Assembly (NCBI RefSeq): GCF_037975245.1
Contig: NC_092575.1
Coordinates: forward strand, 1,865,001 to 1,929,000
Direction: 5' to 3'
Length of the DNA stretch: 64,000 bases
DNA from: Apostichopus japonicus
Lineage: Eukaryota; Echinodermata; Holothuroidea; Aspidochirotida; Stichopodidae
Shown here: in pieces, positions 9,023 to 57,930 of the stretch
Layout of the letters: each line of letters begins with the position of its first letter
Position numbering within the stretch: position 1 is the stretch's first letter
Program-made: the position numbers and the translations under genes
Notes under the pieces: model-generated
What the model was told of the DNA's origin: nothing
The model's input: only the letters and a program-made list of their open reading frames with translations
The model's database searches: none

Positions 9023-12000
9023 ATGTTTCGCTCTTGTGCTGCTAAAGTTCTTTCACCTGCAAGAGGGTTTTCAACTACCACACAGGTAAATGATGGTTTT
9101 CCTTCGAAAACTTTGAGTTTGTCTCACTCTCAGCTTTGCCTAATATTTGGTGTTAGTAGCCTAACGTGTGGAATATTAGGAATTGCTACAAGGCTAGGCC
9201 TAGCTTAGGCTAATTTTACACTGCAGTCAAGCAGATGCAGATACATAATGTACTATTATGGTGGCATACAGAAGCGAAAAGCAGTTATTCATAACTCTAT
9301 GATTTCTTTTTATGTTCTGTTAGATTCAGAATCCATATTGGTTACAATGTCGGTTTAGGGCCTAACTTTAGAATCCATACCAAATGAATGGGAAAGCTTA
9401 CTTCGAATCGGCAGAATAACAACTGTATAATCCGGCTGAACATGTGTGCTCAATAGAATAACAGTCAGTGAATAGGTGCGTCGTGTGAATGATTCGCTGG
9501 AATGAATTAAAGGGGTAGGGAATAGGGTTATTAGGGTAAGTCGAATGGTACGGATTCTAAATTAGTACCGGTTTAGGGCCTAGACAAAGTCTCAAAACAA
9601 AGCATTTCAAGTTCAATTTGCCATTGAAGTCAACCAGTCCCTTTCTGGTAGTGGTATAGGCCTATGCCTAATTCATAGCACTGAGGTATTCATAACACTG
9701 ATTACCTGTAAACATAAATGTTGTCACTTGTGGGAATGTTGAAATCCAAGATGAAAATTATAAAATATGTTGAAATTTCCAAATGACATGTTGTCACAAC
9801 AGTTATTTTGGTGTTGTTTATTTTACATTTACAAACTCTCATATCATCATTTTGTCTAGCAACTCAACAAAGTCGCTGTTCTTGGTGCTGCAGGAGGCAT
9901 TGGACAGCCTTTGTCTCTTCTCCTTAAAGCCAGCCCTCTTATAACAAGGCTTTCCCTTTTTGATATTGTAAACACCCCTGGAGTTGCTGCTGATCTTAGT
10001 CACATCGAGACACCAGCACATGTAACTGGACATCAAGGTCCTGAACAGTTAAATGAAGCCTTAGAAGGATGTGATGTTGTTCTTATACCAGCAGGAGTAC
10101 CTAGGAAGCCAGGTAGGTACTAACAGAGCACATGGCTCTATGTTTCATGCAGCTTAATGGGTTAATAATAATATTAAATTTAGTAAATTTGTGATCTTAA
10201 AATATGTGAAAATAAATATATGAAAAATTGCAATTCATCAGTTTGGCCAGTCAAGCTTGATATCAAACATAATATTGTAAATATCAGCTTTGCACTGTAT
10301 TTTACTGTGTATTTAAAAAAAAAAATTTTTTAATGATTCTTTAATCTGAGTAAACCCTTGATTCTTGCCTTAAAGGTCTGCTGTATAGACCTCAACTATA
10401 GCACGCTATCATGGAAAAGTTTCTTGAGATTACGTAATTGACCTGCCTTGGTCGTAAAATGACCTCTTTTTACCAATTAGTCTGCAACGGCTGCCACATT
10501 TTTTCTTGTATGAGGGTCTTTGTGTGAACGCTGTATGATTAACTACGCTGTAGACATGAACATATTTCCACACAGTGCGTACACAAATAGCCTTATGGTC
10601 TTAAGAAGCTATGCAGGCTTATTGTTGAGCCTGAAGTTGATTTACGACCGTGGCAGGTCGATTACGTAATCACAAAACTTTCCTAGCTATAGCATGCTAT
10701 TATTGGAGACAATAAAGCAGAACTTTAAGTACTGTAACTGATGTTCTTGCAGGGAATGCATCTTGTTTTAATATCCTATTTCTCATTTCAATTTCTGACA
10801 GGTATGACAAGGGATGACCTTTTTAATACCAACGCAGGCATTGTGAAGAACCTCTGCGAAGCAGCTGCCAAGACGTGCCCTAATGCTGTCATTGGTATTA
10901 TTACCAACCCTGTAAGCAACTTTAACATACAACTATTAAAGCAGTATTGTGACTGTCTTGAGCTCATATCGATAAATTTGTTTTATGCTGTTTGATAATA
11001 ACATCGTACAATGAAGTGTATTATTAGTTTGAACAGCCAAGTTTCATTTTGAATAATGAAGTAAAATTTGGGAATTTACAGTTTATTACATGTGATTAAT
11101 GATTACATGTTAAATGACTATGGGGGGGGGGTGGAGGGGGGAACGTTGAGAACCAAATGGAATCGTTTCTTTAAGTTCTTTATAGGATAACATCTGTATA
11201 TCATAGTTTGAGCAAATTGACCCATTGCCATCTTATTTGGAATAATGCCCAGCATGTTTGACAAAATCATCTACCAGAAGCAGATAGCTGTTTTCAAACA
11301 AATCACACTTAAGCTGGTACATAATACACGTACCAGGGGTGAATCCAGGATTTAATAGGAGGTGGTGAGGCCCTGAGGTCTTTGAAGCTGATTCCAATGT
11401 ATTGCGGGGGGGGGGGGGGGGGTGGCCTCCCCCCAGAAAGATAAACTTTTAGCAGTGTAACGGTGCATTCTGATTCATGTAGAAGTCACTATTAGGTCTA
11501 CATGCAAGTCTTGGTTGTGCTAATTGTAATAATGTTTGAGGTTGAAAAAGAGGGGTGTTCCTCTTTCATTCTACAATTAAATGGCTATTCCTTGAGTAGT
11601 TAAGTTCATATGCATTTTTCCTGTAGGTAAATTCAACTGTACCCATAGCCTGTGAGATTTACAAAGCAGCCGGCGTCTACGACTGGAGGAAAATAATTGG
11701 TGTCACCACACTAGACATTGTGCGTTCAAATACCTTTGTCGCTGAAAAGAAGGGACTAGACGTAACAACTGTAAACGTACCCGTCATTGGCGGCCACTCT
11801 GGAATCACAATTATACCACTGCTCTCCCAGGTCAGTCAAAACATTATACCTCTGCTCTCCCAGGTCAGTCAAAACATTATACCTCTGCTCTCCCAGGTCA
11901 GTCAAAACATTATACCTCTGCCCTCCCAGGTCAGTCAAAACATTATACCTATGCCCTCCCAGGTCAGTCAAAACATTATACCTCTGCTCTCTCAGGTTAG

Positions 12001-15000
12001 TCAAAACATTATACCTCTGCTCTCCCAAGTCAGTCAAAACAATATACCTCTGCTCTCCCAGGTCAGTCAAAACAGCTGGTTCTGGTATCACAATTATACC
12101 TCTGCTCTCCCAGACCAGTCAAAACATTATACCTCTGCCCTCCCAGGTCAGTCAAAACATTATACCTCTGCCCTCCCTGGTCAGTCAAAACTATATACCT
12201 CTGCTCTCTCAGGTTAGTCAAAACATTATACCTCTGCTCTCCCAGGTCAGTCAAAACATTATACCTCTGCCCTCCCAGGTCAGTCAAAACATTATACCTC
12301 TGCTCTCCCAGGTCAGTCAAAACAGCTGGTTCTGGTATCACAATTATACCTCTGCTCTCCCAGGTCAGTCAAAACATTATACCCCTGCTCTCCCAGGTCA
12401 GTCAAAACATTATACCTCTGCTCTCCCAGGTCAGTCAAAACATTAAACCTCTGCTCTCTCAGGTTAGTCAGAACATTATACCTCTGCTCTCCCAGGTCAG
12501 TCAAAACATTATACCTCTGCCCTCCCAGGTCAGTCAAAACATTATACCTCTGCTCTCCCAGGTCAGTCAAAACAGCTGGTTCTGGTATCACAATTATACC
12601 CCTGCTCTCCCAGGTCAGTCAAAACATTATACCTCTGCTCTCCCAGGTCAGTCAAAACAGCTGGTTCTGGTATCACAATTTTACCTCTGCTCTCCCAGAC
12701 CAGTCAAAACATTATACCTCTGCTCTCCCAGGTTAGTCAAAACATTATACCTCTGCTACCCCAGGTCAGTCAAAACATTATACCTCTTTCTCTCCCAGGT
12801 TAGTCAAAACATTATACCTCTGCTCTCCCATGTCAGTTAAAACAGCTGGTTCTGGTATCACAATAATACCTCTGCTCTCCCAGGTCAGTCAAAACATTAT
12901 ACCTCTGCTCTCCCAGGTCAGTCAAAACATTCTACCTCTGCTCTCCCAGGCCAGTCGAAACATTATACCTCTGCTCTCCCATGTAATTCGAAACATTATA
13001 CCTCTGCTCTCCCAGGTCAGGACAAAAGACCTGGAGGATGTATAAAATGTGAGGAAAATTCTGTCTCTAGTTTTAGATAAATTGTCACAGAAAAGCCATC
13101 CAAACTAACCATCTGGATACAAACTTGAAGTTACTCCAGGAACTACTCTAGGTCTATTTGCACATGAGTCTATTACTAGTATGGAGATATTACACCACTA
13201 ATGCACAGTTTTATGTGACAAAAGGTTTTCTTTTCCTCCAACAGGCGACACCAGCAGTTTCATTTGATGATGATGTCCTGGAGAAACTGACAGACAGGAT
13301 TCAGAATGCTGGCACTGAAGTAGTCAACGCTAAAGCTGGAGCTGTAAGTACCTCATTAATATTCAACAGCTGGAACAGTCGTTGTTGTCCAGGTTAACCG
13401 GCATTCATTCTACCTTGTCAGAGTATGGTAGTCAACTTGTTAAAGACAACAGATCTACGGATTGCAGGTATGAGTGTCCTGGCCGGGTCATTAAGTTGTC
13501 TCCCTTAATCCCATTGTCAATTCAACCCTGTGCATAACTGACAGCCAAGTTGGTACTCAACTTGTAAAAACAGTTGTGTGTGCAGGAGTTTGACTGCAGC
13601 CTATGGGATGCCCCCATCCCCAACCCCTCACCCCTGTGGACTCGTAGATGTGGCACCCTGCTGTCAGTTTGAATTGTGCACAGTTGTGTTTTTGAGTGTG
13701 ACAAGTTACCAGTGCTAACTTTTGTAAGTAATGTGAAAATGGATTTACATGTCTCCAAACTAAGAAGAACTATAACAACTGTGCATCATTATATGCCCTA
13801 CTTGTTTCAAACATTCATTTCAAGTTGGGCAAAAACTCAATTCCATCTGCTCGTCAACTAGCAAATTAGTGACAGTATCCCCTTCTCTGCAACGTAAATG
13901 TGGAAATGACTAATTGTGGCCTTTAAAAAAGCCTGAAAGCATTTAATTACTTATCAGTCACAAAGGGAATCTCAGGAATGTTATCTTCATTTGATATCAC
14001 ACTTTGATGGAGGATCCAGCCGCTACAATGTATTCCCAGATATTTGCAAAAGATAAGACGAAACAACCAATTGTCTCAGTGATGGACAAATGTTTGGGAG
14101 GGTTACATTATTTTCTGCTTTAACGAGTTGGGCATTTCTTTTGTTTTCTTGTCATTCTTTTTGTGTCTATATCTGCTTGGAAATATGAAGACAATGGTAC
14201 TACTTAGGATTTAATTGTTCTTTGGTCATTCCTTTGCAAGGAAATTCACCCAAAAACTGATGATTCTTTGACCTTAGTTTTATTGAGCTTTGGCTTGATG
14301 GTGGTAATTGTGAACAAAAATTATAGTAAGCTGATTAGAATTTTGTATTTTTTTTTCTTTTTGTTACCGTCAATTTCTTTAATCTGCCCATCCAGGGTTC
14401 GGCAACACTTTCAATGGCCTATGCCGCGTCAAGATTCTGCAATTCGGTAAGTAAAATAAGGATCTCTTAAATTAAGATTGCCCCTAACTTTCTGATTCTG
14501 ATAGTTATTTAACTTATTTATGAGAGAAAATAGTAGTATACCAAGGGATGAAATTTTCTGTTCTGGATGAGTTCAATATCTTCTGACAGAAGTACAAAAT
14601 GATCGGGGAAATAATGAGAAAATGATCGAGGAAATGAAAGGAGTTGGTTAATAGAAGCTGAAGAAAAAGTTGTCAAGTCACTCTTTGGTTGAATATTCAT
14701 TAGGTTGTTTGTTGTTTCTTTAAATATTCATGAATAAATCGCTGTGAAATATGAGCAATTTGCAAGTGGATTATGAAGAGATGATACAGGATTGTAGTTG
14801 ATAGCAGTTTCTTTTTGGGGGGGCAGTGGGAGGGGTGTAAAAGAAGAGGATGGGGGAGTGGGAGGGGTGTAAAAGAAGAGGATGCGGGAAGTGGGAGGGG
14901 TGTAAAAGAAGAGGATGCAAAAGTGAACCCTTGGTTTGTAAAGCTATGAAAAGATTGAAGCACCTTGCATGAGTTTATCAATAGTTTCTCTATGGTAACT

Positions 15001-31000: not shown

Positions 31001-31497
31001 GGACATTTGGGGTGAGACTTGAACTCAACGATGAGGAGCTGAAACTTTGGCACGAAGATGATAGAGATCAACTTGATGTTCTTAGAGATCAACTTGATGA
31101 AGAAGATAGAGCTCAACTTGATGAAGAAGATAGAGCTCAACTTGATGAAGAAGATAGAGGTCAACTTGCTGAAGAAGATAGAGCTCAACTTGCCGAAGGC
31201 AGCAGAAAAGGTGATCTGGAATGGGAGCCGTCTAAGTTTTCACCGACGAATGGACCAGGCAGCAGGGCCCACCTGACCTTGGCTGTCAGGGAGAAAGTTC
31301 ATCCCTTACAGACAGGTCTGGACTTGAAGGAAATCATCAAGAAAGAGGTAGAAGACCAGAAAACTGGAAAGGATAGGTTAACAATCAACTTAGAATGCGG
31401 AGTGGCCAGGTGCTATGGAAACGGCTCCTGGGCTGTTTACTTGAACAAGTCCCAAGAATATCAAGCATTGTTTTCAAGCATGTATCTCAAGAAATGA
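25040..31497 (+). CDS. CNP: 2',3'-cyclic-nucleotide 3'-phosphodiesterase (CNP)-like protein with degenerate kinase half
   Basis: Two coding exons, 25040-25568 and 30815-31497, give 403 residues (mammalian CNP 401-421). The C-terminal 2H phosphoesterase domain keeps both HxT motifs: LLHCTGYF and SRAHLTLAV. It also keeps GSRAHLTL, QTGLDL and YGNGSWAVYL, in the order known from CNP. The N-terminal half aligns with the CNP polynucleotide-kinase-like domain (FPFFEDPNSI, LLVFIPG, PLFYGWFF, DTLRRRADDLL), but GDDDLCKKF stands where the P-loop GLPGSGKST should be, so it cannot bind ATP in the usual way. The start at 25040 gives MGIFSSS, a plausible N-myristoylation signal; an upstream in-frame ATG at 24971 would add 23 hydrophobic residues, but a strong acceptor at 25020 suggests the upstream part is intron. 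The C-terminus (SSMYLKK) lacks the mammalian prenylation box. An acidic repeat lies between the two catalytic motifs. CNP hydrolyses 2',3'-cyclic nucleotides to 2'-nucleotides. Confidence 0.88.
25569..30814 (+). other. Single large intron of the CNP-like gene
   Basis: Donor GTAAGT at 25569 and acceptor TCTTTCAG ending at 30814. Apart from a MITE (27562-27924) it holds AT-rich unique sequence, with short G-rich tracts near 25630 and 26025-26055. I see no nested gene or RNA. Confidence 0.7.
27562..27924 (+). mobile_element. TTAA-type MITE, family 2, copy B (in CNP intron)
   Basis: Homologous over its whole length to the copy at 23531-23893. Its flanking tetranucleotides have decayed (CTAA and TTAG) and part of the right terminal repeat is missing, so it is older than copy A or mutated. 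Confidence 0.8.
31059..31198 (+). repeat. Coding 24-bp tandem repeat (acidic octapeptide) in CNP exon 2
   Basis: Six units of about 24 bases encode variants of DRAQLDEE. They lie in the loop between LWHED and the second HxT segment, where mammalian CNP has only a short linker. The frame is kept because the unit is 8 codons; the second unit is one codon shorter. Some other frames are also open here, as expected for a repeat, and are not genes. Confidence 0.93.
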
Positions 31498-31856: not shown

Positions 31857-34215
31857 GTTAAACAATATTGAAAGGAGCAGTTGTAAACAATATTGAAGGA
31901 AATTAGTTTTAGTACACAATATTGAAACAAATTACACTGTAGTTAGTAAACAAAATTGAGAGTAACCAGGTTACAAAAGTTAAAGTAAGCAACATTGAAT
32001 TAGAAACAATAGCACTTTTAGTAAAATAACATGTAAGAAATTAAGTTATAAATAACATTGAAAGAAACTGTAGTTTTAAAACAATTTGGAAGATACTTAG
32101 CATTGAAAGCAACTTAGTTACATTAATCAATATTGAAAGCAACTTAGTTATCATAAACAATGTTGAAAGCAACTTAGTTGTAGTAAACAATGTTGAAAGC
32201 AACTAAGTTATAATAAACAATGTTGAAAGCAACTTAGTTATAGTAAACAATATTGAAAGCAACTTAGTTATATTAAACAATATTGAAAGCAACTTAGTTA
32301 TATTAAACAATATTGAAAGCAACTTAGTTATAATAAACAATGTTGCAAGCAACTTGCATATAATAAACAATGCTGAAAGCGTATATTAATCAATATTGAA
32401 AGCAACTTAGTTATAATAAACAATGTTGAAAGCAACTTAGTTATATTTATCAATATTGAAAGTGACTTAGTTATAATAAACAATTATGAAAGCAACTTAG
32501 TTATAATAAACAATGCTGAAAGCAACTTAGTATATTAATCAATATTGAAAGCAACTTTGTTATAACAAACAATGCTGAAAGCAACTTAAGTATGTTAATC
32601 AATATTGAAAGCAACTTAGTTATAATAAACAATGTTGAAAGCAAATTACTTATATTAATCAATATTGAAAGCAACTTAGTTATAATAAACAATATTGAAA
32701 GCAACTTAGTTATAATAAACAATGCTGAAAGCAACTTAAGTATATTAATCAATGTTGAAAGCAACTTAGTTATAATAAACAATGTTGAGAGCAACTTAGT
32801 TATATTAATCAATATTGAAAGCAACTTAGTTATAATAAACAATGTTGAAAGCAATTTAGATATATTAAACAATATTGAAAGCAACTTAGTTATAATTAAC
32901 AATGTTGAAAGCAACTTAGTTATAGTACACATTATTGAAAGCAACTTAGTTATAATAAACAATATTGAAAGCAACTTAGTTGTAATAAACAATGTTGAAA
33001 GCAACTTTGTTATAATAAACAATGCTGAAACAACTTAAGTATATTAATCAATATTGAAAGCAACTTAGTTGTAATAAACAATGTTGAAAGCAACTTAGTT
33101 ATATTAATTAATATTGAAAGCAACTTAGTTGTAATAAACAATGTTGAAAGCAACTTAGTTATAATTAATAATGTTGAAAGCAACTTAGTTATAGTAAACA
33201 ATATTGGACGCAACTTAGTTATAGTAAGCAATATTGAAAGCAACTTAGTTATAATAAACAATATTGAAAGCAACTTAGTTATAATAAACAATTATGAAAG
33301 CAACGTAGTTATATTTATCAATATTGAAAGTGACTTAGTTATAATAAACAATTATGAAAGCAACTTAGTTATAATAAACAATGCTGAAAGCAACTTAGTA
33401 TATTAATCAATATTGAAAGCAACTTTGTTATAACAAACAATGCTGAAAGCAACTTAAGTATGTTAATCAATATTGAAAGCAACTTAGTTATAATAAACAA
33501 TGTTGAAAGCAAATTACTTATATTAATCAATATTGAAAGCAACTTAGTTATAATAAACAATATTGAAAGCAACTTAGTTATAATAAACAATGCTGAAAGC
33601 AACTTAAGTATATTAATCAATGTTGAAAGCAACTTAGTTATAATAAACAATGTTGAGAGCAACTTAGTTATATTAATCAATATTGAAAGCAACTTAGTTA
33701 TAATAAACAATGTTGAAAGCAATTTAGATATATTAAACAATATTGAAAGCAACTTAGTTATAATTAACAATGTTGAAAGCAACTTAGTTATAGTACACAT
33801 TATTGAAAGCAACTTAGTTATAATAAACAATATTGAAAGCAACTTAGTTGTAATAAACAATGTTGAAAGCAACTTTGTTATAATAAACAATGCTGAAACA
33901 ACTTAAGTATATTAATCAATATTGAAAGCAACTTAGTTGTAATAAACAATGTTGAAAGCAACTTAGTTATATTAATTAATATTGAAAGCAACTTAGTTGT
34001 AATAAACAATGTTGAAAGCAACTTAGTTATAATTAATAATGTTGAAAGCAACTTAGTTATAGTAAACAATATTGGACGCAACTTAGTTATAGTAAGCAAT
34101 ATTGAAAGCAACTTAGTTATAATAAACAATATTGAAAGCAACTTAGTTATAATAAACAATTATGAAAGCAACGTAGTTATAGTAAACACTATTAAAAGCA
34201 ACTTATCTTATTACC
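31857..34215. repeat. 30-bp satellite array with 868-bp higher-order duplication
   Basis: About 78 copies of a 30-bp unit (GAAAGCAACTTAGTTATAAT plus AAACAATGTT). The left edge (31857-32100) is diverged and the middle is more regular. A block of 868 bp is tandemly duplicated: 32439-33306 and 33307-34174. The two blocks carry the same pattern of variant monomers and look identical wherever I compared them. The open frames that run through on both strands (ESNLVIINNV, ITKLLS) are by-products of a unit of 10 codons. Confidence 0.96.
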
Positions 34216-55660: not shown

Positions 55661-57930
55661 CAATGATCGGATAAAAAAAAAATTGAGCCGAAAAATTAAA
55701 GTTCTCAAATACAGTATCAATCAGGATGCTCGTAATGGAAAAGTAGCAGTCTATGGAATTTTGAAAGCTGATAATTAAAATCATTTTCAAAATATATTTT
55801 ATCAAATTTGTTTCTAAATGGAAACGTATCTTGTCATAATTTCATTATTTTCTAACTCAGAAGGTCGTCCTCTATCTAAAGCATAATTTTTGGACGAATT
55901 AAAAAGTTCATGATTTTGGCCGAAAATTGAAAAAATCATAAGGGTATAGCCTTACAAAATAGTCAAATTTGGCCCCAAAATGAAATTTTCCAAATATCAA
56001 TCAGGATGCTCCAAATGGATCAGCAGGGCACAGATATGCTTTTCTTTGAAGTAAAATTAGCAATTTATGGAATTTTGAGAGCCGATATTAACATCATTTT
56101 CAAAATATATTTTATTAAATTTGTTTCTAAATGGAAACGTATCTTGTCATAATTTCATTATTTTCTAACTCAGAAGGTCGTCCTCTATCTAAAGCATAAT
56201 TTTTGGACGAATTAAAAAGTTCATGATTTTGGCCGAAAATTGAAAAAATCATAAGGGTATAGCCTTACAAAATAGTCAAATTTGGCCCCAAAATGAAATT
56301 TTCCAAATATCAATCAGGATGCTCCAAATGGATCAGCAGGGCACAGATATGCTTTTCTTTGAAGTAAAATTAGCAATTTATGGAATTTTGAGAGCCGATA
56401 TTAACATCATTTTCAAAATATATTTTTTGAAATTTGTTTCTAAATGGAAACGTATCTTGTCATAATTTCATTATTTTCTAAATCAGAAGGGCGTCTTCTA
56501 TCTAAAGTATAATTTTGGGACGAATTAAAAAGTTCATGATTTTGGCCGAAAATTGAAAAAATCATAAGGGTATAGCCTTACAAAATAGTCAAATTTGGCC
56601 CCAAAATGAAATTTTCCAAATATCAATCAGGATGCTCCAAATGGATCAGCAGGGCACAGATATGCTTTTCTTTGAAGTAAAATTAGCAATTTATGGAATT
56701 TTGAGAGCCGATATTAACATCATTTTCAAAATATATTTTATTAAATTTGTTTCTAAATGGAAACGTATCTTGTCATAATTTCATTATTTTTTTAAATCAG
56801 AAGGTCGTCCTCTATCTAAAGCATAATTTTTGGACGAATTAAAAAGTTCATGATTTTGGCCGAAAATTGAAAAAAATCATAAGGGTATAGCCTTACAAAA
56901 TAGTCAAATTTGGCCCCAAAATGAAATTTTCCAAATATCAATCAGGATGCTCCAAATGGATCAGCAGGGCACAGATATGCTTTTCTTTGAAGTAAAATTA
57001 GCAATTTATGGAATTTTGAGAGCCGATATTAACATCATTTTCAAAATATATTTTATTAAATTTGTTTCTAAATGGAAACGTATCTTGTCATAAATTCATT
57101 ATTTTCTAACTCAGAAGGTCGTCCTCTATCTAAAGCATAATTTTTGGACGAATTAAAAAGTTCATGATTTTGGCCGAAAATTGAAAAAATCATAAGGGTA
57201 TAGCCTTACAAAATAGTCAAATTTGGCCCCAAAATGAAAGGTTCCAAATATCAATCAGGATGCTCCAGATGGATCAGCAGAGCCCAGATATGCTTTTCTT
57301 TGAAGTAAAATTAGCAATTTATGGAATTTTGAGTGCCGATATTAAAATGATTTTCAATATATATTTTTTGAAATTTGTTTCTAAATGGAAACGTATCTTG
57401 TCATAATTTCATTATTGTCTAACTCAGAAGGGCGTCTTCTATCTAAAGCATGATTTTGGGACGAATTCAAAAGTTCATGATTTTGGCCCAAAATTGAAAA
57501 AAATCATAAGGGTATAGCCCTACAAAATAGTCAAATTTGGCCCCAAAATAAAAGGTTCCAAATATCAATCAGGATGCTCCAGATGGATCCGCAGAGCCCA
57601 GATATGCTTTTCTTTGAAGTAAAATTAGCAATTTATGGAATTTTGAGAGCCGATATTAAAATGATTTTCAAAATATATTTTATTAAATTTGTTTCTAAAT
57701 GGAAACGTATCTTGTCATAAATTCATTATTGTCTAACTCAGAAGGGCGTCCTCTATCTAAAGCATAATTTTGGGACGAAATAAAAAAAAAGGTCATGATT
57801 TTGGCCCAAAATTGAAAATATCATAAGGGTATAGCCTTACAAAATAGTCAAATTTGGCCCCAAAATGAAAGATTCCAAATATCAATCAGGATGTTCGTAA
57901 TGGGCTAGCAGAGCTCAGATGAAGACAAAA
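55661..57930. repeat. 313-bp satellite, about seven units
   Basis: The marker GAAACGTATCTTGTCATAA recurs at 55821, 56134, 56447, 56760, 57075, 57388 and 57702, a period of 313-315 bp. Each unit also has AGGTCGTCCTCTATCTAAAG, GATTTTGGCCGAAAATTG, AAGGGTATAGCCTTACAAAA and TATCAATCAGGATGCTC. Middle units differ by few bases; the outer ones are more diverged. Related text recurs at 58425-58590, showing a longer original array. Confidence 0.96.

Follow-up and report, generated by a model that had tools for sequence, protein, structure and literature searches.

A minisatellite derived from the exon 4-intron 4 boundary of MDH2 in the sea cucumber Apostichopus japonicus

Introduction

How does a gene end an exon correctly when the splice donor at its edge is repeated, again and again, in the intron that follows, and how does such an array come about? 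The question is raised by MDH2, the gene for mitochondrial malate dehydrogenase (MDH), in a 64,000-nucleotide stretch of the Apostichopus japonicus genome (assembly GCF_037975245.1, contig NC_092575.1, positions 1,865,001 to 1,929,000, forward strand). This whole stretch is called the window, and positions are numbered within it. Beside exon 4 of this gene lies a minisatellite of 34 copies made from the end of the exon and its donor. We propose that it is very probably an intronic, near-neutral array with a dominant first donor, of the type described in amphioxus as mirages, which are minisatellite-like duplications of exon-intron boundaries (PMC3087553, PMC3902484).

Results

The + strand of the window between 8.9 and 16.8 kb was recognized as an animal MDH2 gene. 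Exons 2 to 8 correspond to seven tblastn matches to a human MDH2 query, of which the exon 6 match is weak taken alone (E 0.027); exon 1 was placed by eye within an open reading frame (ORF), and seven introns were placed in all. Exon 4 matches Pfam Ldh_1_C (1.8e-12), and intron 4 runs from 11831 to 13244 (1414 bases). The features on which the argument turns are these:

11627..11830, + strand: MDH2 exon 4, ending in PLLSQ in phase 0, with the exonic part of the unit present in it as the first copy (tblastn, Pfam Ldh_1_C, solved MDHs)
11831..11836, + strand: the real intron 4 donor, CAG/GTCAGT, giving a conserved protein when joined to 13245
13245..13343, + strand: MDH2 exon 5, with acceptor TTTTCCTCCAACAG/GCG (tblastn)

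Joined without an insert, exons 4, 5 and 6 encode a peptide that matches 45 solved sequences, and the three alignments printed against solved MDHs are gapless at the exon 4-5 join. Because the seven best of the 45 equal this peptide in length (residues 1-116 or 1-117 of 118), protein continuity points to donor 1, at 11830, as the main splice site. Over this stretch several lower-ranked bacterial MDHs are one residue shorter and a more distant match, 5zi2, is 10 residues longer. We note that the start of exon 4 (11618-11632) reads TAG/GTAAAT, a donor-like 5' end as found in recursive-splicing exons, which may merely reflect the coding of VN.

The array and its long units are placed as follows:

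11810..13020 (end approximate), + strand: minisatellite of 34 copies, the real donor included, showing higher-order periodicity at 217 and 250 bp (Tandem Repeats Finder and consensus scan)
12074..12092, + strand: the 19 additional bp in long (52-bp) unit 1, which shift the frame
12324..12342, + strand: the 19 additional bp in long unit 2
12574..12592, + strand: the 19 additional bp in long unit 3
12659..12677, + strand: the 19 additional bp in long unit 4
12844..12862, + strand: the 19 additional bp in long unit 5

The array takes up 1189 of the 1414 bases of intron 4; its first copy consists of the last 21 bases of exon 4 and the exon's own donor, and both of its edges pass into unique sequence. 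A first-pass annotation of this DNA had derived the array from the exon's end and donor, which is supported, the 52-bp units carrying 33 exonic and about 19 intronic bases. It had also described a 33-bp unit throughout; this is the spacing in 27 of 33 cases in the consensus scan, but five others are 52 bp and one is 34 bp. The motif CAGGTCAGT occurs 21 times in the array on the + strand and on neither strand elsewhere in the window (outside 11781-13030). A 30-base probe for the intron 4 donor found 32 further + strand matches of at least 22/30 within 2.5 kb, whereas the other 13 MDH2 splice-junction probes, that for the intron 1 acceptor being placed 3 bases early, found none at this threshold on the same strand and over the same distance (best 19/30), which speaks against duplication of this kind at the other boundaries of the gene. 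There are 23 unit types among the 34 copies when long units are counted apart. The last two copies carry four changes each, as do two inner copies, and divergence neither rises nor falls significantly from copy 2 to copy 33 (rho 0.21, p 0.25).

Not every copy has kept its donor. GT is present in 31 of the 34 copies, CAG/GT, with AG and GT together, in 27, and CAG/GTYAGT (CAG/GTCAGT or CAG/GTTAGT) in 26, so that the CAG/GTCAGT said to be restated by every unit is intact, with this one variation, in most but not all of them, and the roughly 35 competing donors become 34 copies, counting the real donor, of which 26 are intact. The predicted U1 pairing of these 26 is -7.5 or -7.7 kcal/mol, inside the range of the gene's seven donors (-4.3 to -11.3 kcal/mol). 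Folding of three stretches of the array gave no better RNA structure than shuffled sequence (z 1.46, 1.23 and 0.66); the idea that structure hides the downstream donors is unsupported in these stretches, the rest of the array lying outside the test.

The reading frame sets a narrower limit. It does remain open to 12217, as first annotated, but loses the register of the exon at the first 52-bp unit (12074-12092), and translation gave an in-frame, stop-free join to exon 5 from only 8 of the 34 positions, namely the real donor and donors 2-8, which fall within a short part of the array:

11831..12061, + strand: part of the array with donors 2 to 8, the sole extra donors from which the join to exon 5 is in frame and stop-free

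Six of these seven equal the real donor in predicted U1 pairing, while donor 7 is weak (CAA/GT, -1.2 vs -7.5 kcal/mol). Donors past the eighth would lead to frameshifted or stop-bearing messages; the 11-residue blocks proposed for later donors therefore hold for donors 2-8, one of them weak, but not beyond, and length isoforms are possible for at most seven extra donors rather than about 35. The openness of the array is itself weak evidence, because 3765 of 20000 shuffled 33-mers, when tandemized, were also open in all three frames.

Neither donor nor coding positions gave a significant sign of selection, in two tests that are both small and in which the array copies are not independent. Among copies 2-33 the donor 9-mer, 9 of the 33 positions of the unit, holds 16 of 42 changes vs 11.5 expected (p=0.12), or 8 of 24 distinct changes (p=0.50); donor positions are thus not depleted of changes, and protective selection on the donors is unsupported. 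Synonymous changes make up 9 of 24 distinct changes vs 24-29% expected (p 0.15-0.37), an excess that is not significant and leaves a protein-coding array unsupported as well.

The long units preserve what looks like the founder of the array, a 52-bp unit of 33 exon-end and about 19 intron-start bases, for which two stretches of the gene provide the counterparts:

11798..11830, + strand: source of the founder's exonic part, the last 33 exon bases
13016..13036, + strand: probable original intron 4 start, located after the last exonic copy (GTCAGGACAAAAGACCTGGAG)

In the second long unit, the sole one tested, the exonic part (12331-12363) is identical to the last 33 bases of exon 4 at 31 of 33 positions, a match equalled by none of 2000 shuffles, and the 13 bases ahead of it show no exon match (1829 of 2000 shuffles as good). 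The stretch at 13016-13036 resembles the 19 intronic bases of the long unit together with the donor, with a score reached by 2 of 2000 shuffles, or by 6 of 2000 once the donor hexamer is excluded; the two stretches had been chosen by eye before the shuffle test. Intron 4 seems older than the array, since this remnant of its start, a short match, follows the last copy. Comparison of the exon copy with the 33 others revealed a difference at one synonymous site; homogenization has therefore not overwritten the exon there. The periods of 217 and 250 bp and a repeated order of blocks would fit block turnover.

Several other features of the window were recorded. A second donor-rich minisatellite lies at 246-673, with about 12.8 copies of a 34-bp unit and 13 GTAAGT hexamers; possible exons, placed by eye at about 1-104 and 847-930, seem to flank it, which would put it mid-intron and thus away from an exon boundary, yet it supplies many decoy donors. 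At 31054-31192 a CNPase-family ORF (PF05881, 3.8e-30) contains a coding 24-bp tandem repeat of the LDEEDRAQ type, and downstream of this ORF, at 32102-34205, are about 70 copies of an A+T-rich 30-bp repeat. Two 172-amino-acid ORFs within the latter (32520-33038 and 33388-33906) are identical by eye, which suggests a recent block duplication. A satellite-like array of a 313-bp unit (6.9 copies, 96% match) occupies 55739-57893. The Pfam scan covered 9 ORF stretches, the window's ORF list having 72 entries, and a TPR-like stretch fell just below its cut-off. No Rfam family at gathering score and no tRNA was found in the window.

Discussion

The proposal set out above is that the MDH2 array is a mirage-type minisatellite. 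The spliceosome would mainly take the first donor, which is attached to a defined exon 4, and join it to 13245; donor 2 and those closest to it are predicted to be used at a low level, with 11 residues added per unit. As to origin, we infer as the simplest history that a 52-bp stretch of MDH2, 33 exon-end and 19 intron-start bases, was tandemly duplicated, that loss of 19 bp in one copy would have given the 33-bp unit, and that unequal exchange or slippage may then have spread the units in blocks of about six or seven, so displacing the old intron start 1.2 kb downstream. Measured against this, the observation made in the first-pass annotation is partly confirmed and its interpretation partly supported.

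The annotation had called the arrangement unusual, and the 34-copy array is confirmed, but there are precedents. Amphioxus mirages have units of 10-160 bp with AG/GT in many of them, are unstable in length and are thought not to disturb splicing; their hosts include Adh3 (units of 10-72 bp), the globins BflGb6 and BflGb9, and TnC, with similar repeats in PGBD5 (PMC3087553, PMC3902484). Like them, the MDH2 unit spans and derives from an exon-intron boundary, adjoins a splice site that protein continuity identifies as real, and has AG/GT in many but not all copies (27/34). It differs in having, at the MDH2 donor, 34 copies in two main sizes of unit, together with a higher-order period. The second precedent is the variable number tandem repeat in intron 18 of human ABCA7, a 25-bp unit that begins with the exon 18 donor and is present in 23.7 units in the reference genome (PMC5954066). 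Retention of one unit through the next donor was measured there at 2 +/- 1%, this being the second of two frameshifting isoforms by the order in which the section lists them, and longer arrays gave more skipping of exon 19 with one-unit retention unchanged (PMC5954066). In both genes the array directly follows the exon and the GT of the first unit is the real donor. However, the ABCA7 array starts at this GT, whereas 21 exon bases belong to the array in MDH2, and the 25-bp unit shifts the frame, which the 33-bp unit of MDH2 preserves as far as the seventh extra donor. A third system is intron gain by tandem duplication of AGGT, in which the duplicated AG/GT can act as donor and acceptor (review PMC3443670); the MDH2 intron, by contrast, seems to predate its array, judging from the short remnant after the last copy.

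Other explanations for the array have to be weighed against this proposal. One is that donors 2-8 are regularly used and place one to seven 11-residue blocks after PLLSQ, generating length variants of MDH2. All seven reach exon 5 in frame without a stop, six with predicted U1 pairing like that of the real donor, and ABCA7 demonstrates use of a donor one unit downstream (PMC5954066). However, donor and coding positions are kept no better than chance, the 52-bp and 34-bp spacings disrupt the frame, and the seven best solved MDHs have no extra residues across exons 4-6, even though the distant 5zi2 has 10 more; we regard regular use of this kind as very unlikely. Similarly improbable is an error of assembly, by collapse or expansion, that gave a genuine array the wrong number or order of copies. 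The copies are highly identical, and one mirage appeared to be assembled aberrantly in the draft genome (PMC3087553), but the distinct substitutions that define the 23 unit types, and the unique sequence on either side, speak against such an error.

Another possibility is that the array repairs itself by recursive splicing, internal events removing multiples of the unit and rebuilding the donor, so that the message is unchanged or gains 33-base cassettes. The sequence that ends the exon, CTGCTCTCCCAG, has the look of a 3' splice site as well, and the 15 bases before the junction hold 11 to 14 pyrimidines in the 34 units vs 10 to 13 in six real MDH2 acceptors (the intron 1 acceptor being left out of this comparison); for this reason the unit resembles a Drosophila ratchet point, where acceptor and donor are juxtaposed at one point and the donor is rebuilt after splicing (PMC8605326). 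Since the units resemble an acceptor and a donor at once, in phase 0, splicing within the array would remove units whole and restore an identical donor. Junctional AG is present in 30 of the 34 units, with GT in 31. Among units 3-34, 28 bear AG, and in 24 of them joining to exon 4 restores CAG/GTYAGT; the same holds for 305 of the 428 donor-acceptor pairs separated by two units or more. Of 33 adjacent pairs, 26 offer AG and then GT; the cassette so bounded keeps the frame and is open in 23 of the 26, whatever its place in the array. The MDH2 units thus share with ratchet points a pyrimidine tract, AG and then a donor at one point (CAG/GT in 27/34), but ratchet points in the fly are found mainly in long introns (PMC8605326), whereas here 34 copies crowd an intron of 1.4 kb. 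Once splicing has taken place, regenerated splice sites are reportedly suppressed by the exon junction complex (PMC8605326), which counts against easy reuse of a rebuilt donor, and by eye no good branch-point motif was noticed in the unit. We therefore consider recursive removal unlikely, and its fuller form quite unlikely, in which exon 4 would be processed recursively along a ladder of self-repairing splice sites, with the message unchanged apart from occasional in-frame 11-residue cassettes drawn from the whole array.

Some of the data do not sit easily with a near-neutral array dominated by its first donor. Seven extra donors stay in frame and the synonymous share is slightly, if not significantly, above expectation, and for these reasons there may be limited coding use of the array. 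In ABCA7 the one-unit isoform carries a premature stop and is prone to decay, and blocking decay raised such isoforms (PMC5954066); the 2% figure may therefore understate use of the second donor. Among competing donors, SRSF1 is cited as promoting use of the intron-proximal one and hnRNP A1 that of the distal one (PMC5585400), so that SRSF1 would favour the downstream copies of the array. As regards the proposed origin, the site of the 19-bp deletion has only 1 base of microhomology, on which ground a microhomology deletion was rejected, and the match to the intron remnant is short and was chosen by eye.

The phenomenon is already in print for amphioxus and for human ABCA7, and the MDH2 array is a new example of it; an array of this kind in MDH2 was not met in the literature searched, where none of the matches listed named this gene, although we do not claim that it is absent from print. 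What it adds is the number of intact donors, the frame kept for the first seven extra donors and a readable founder. The locus places 26 near-identical donors next to one exon of a housekeeping-enzyme gene and provides a natural experiment on donor choice by the spliceosome when the candidates are equal; the position of a donor can be separated from its strength, and each choice records its own length in the message. The array is also a readable record of its own birth, in the form of a 52-bp founder, a 33-bp derivative and a displaced intron start.

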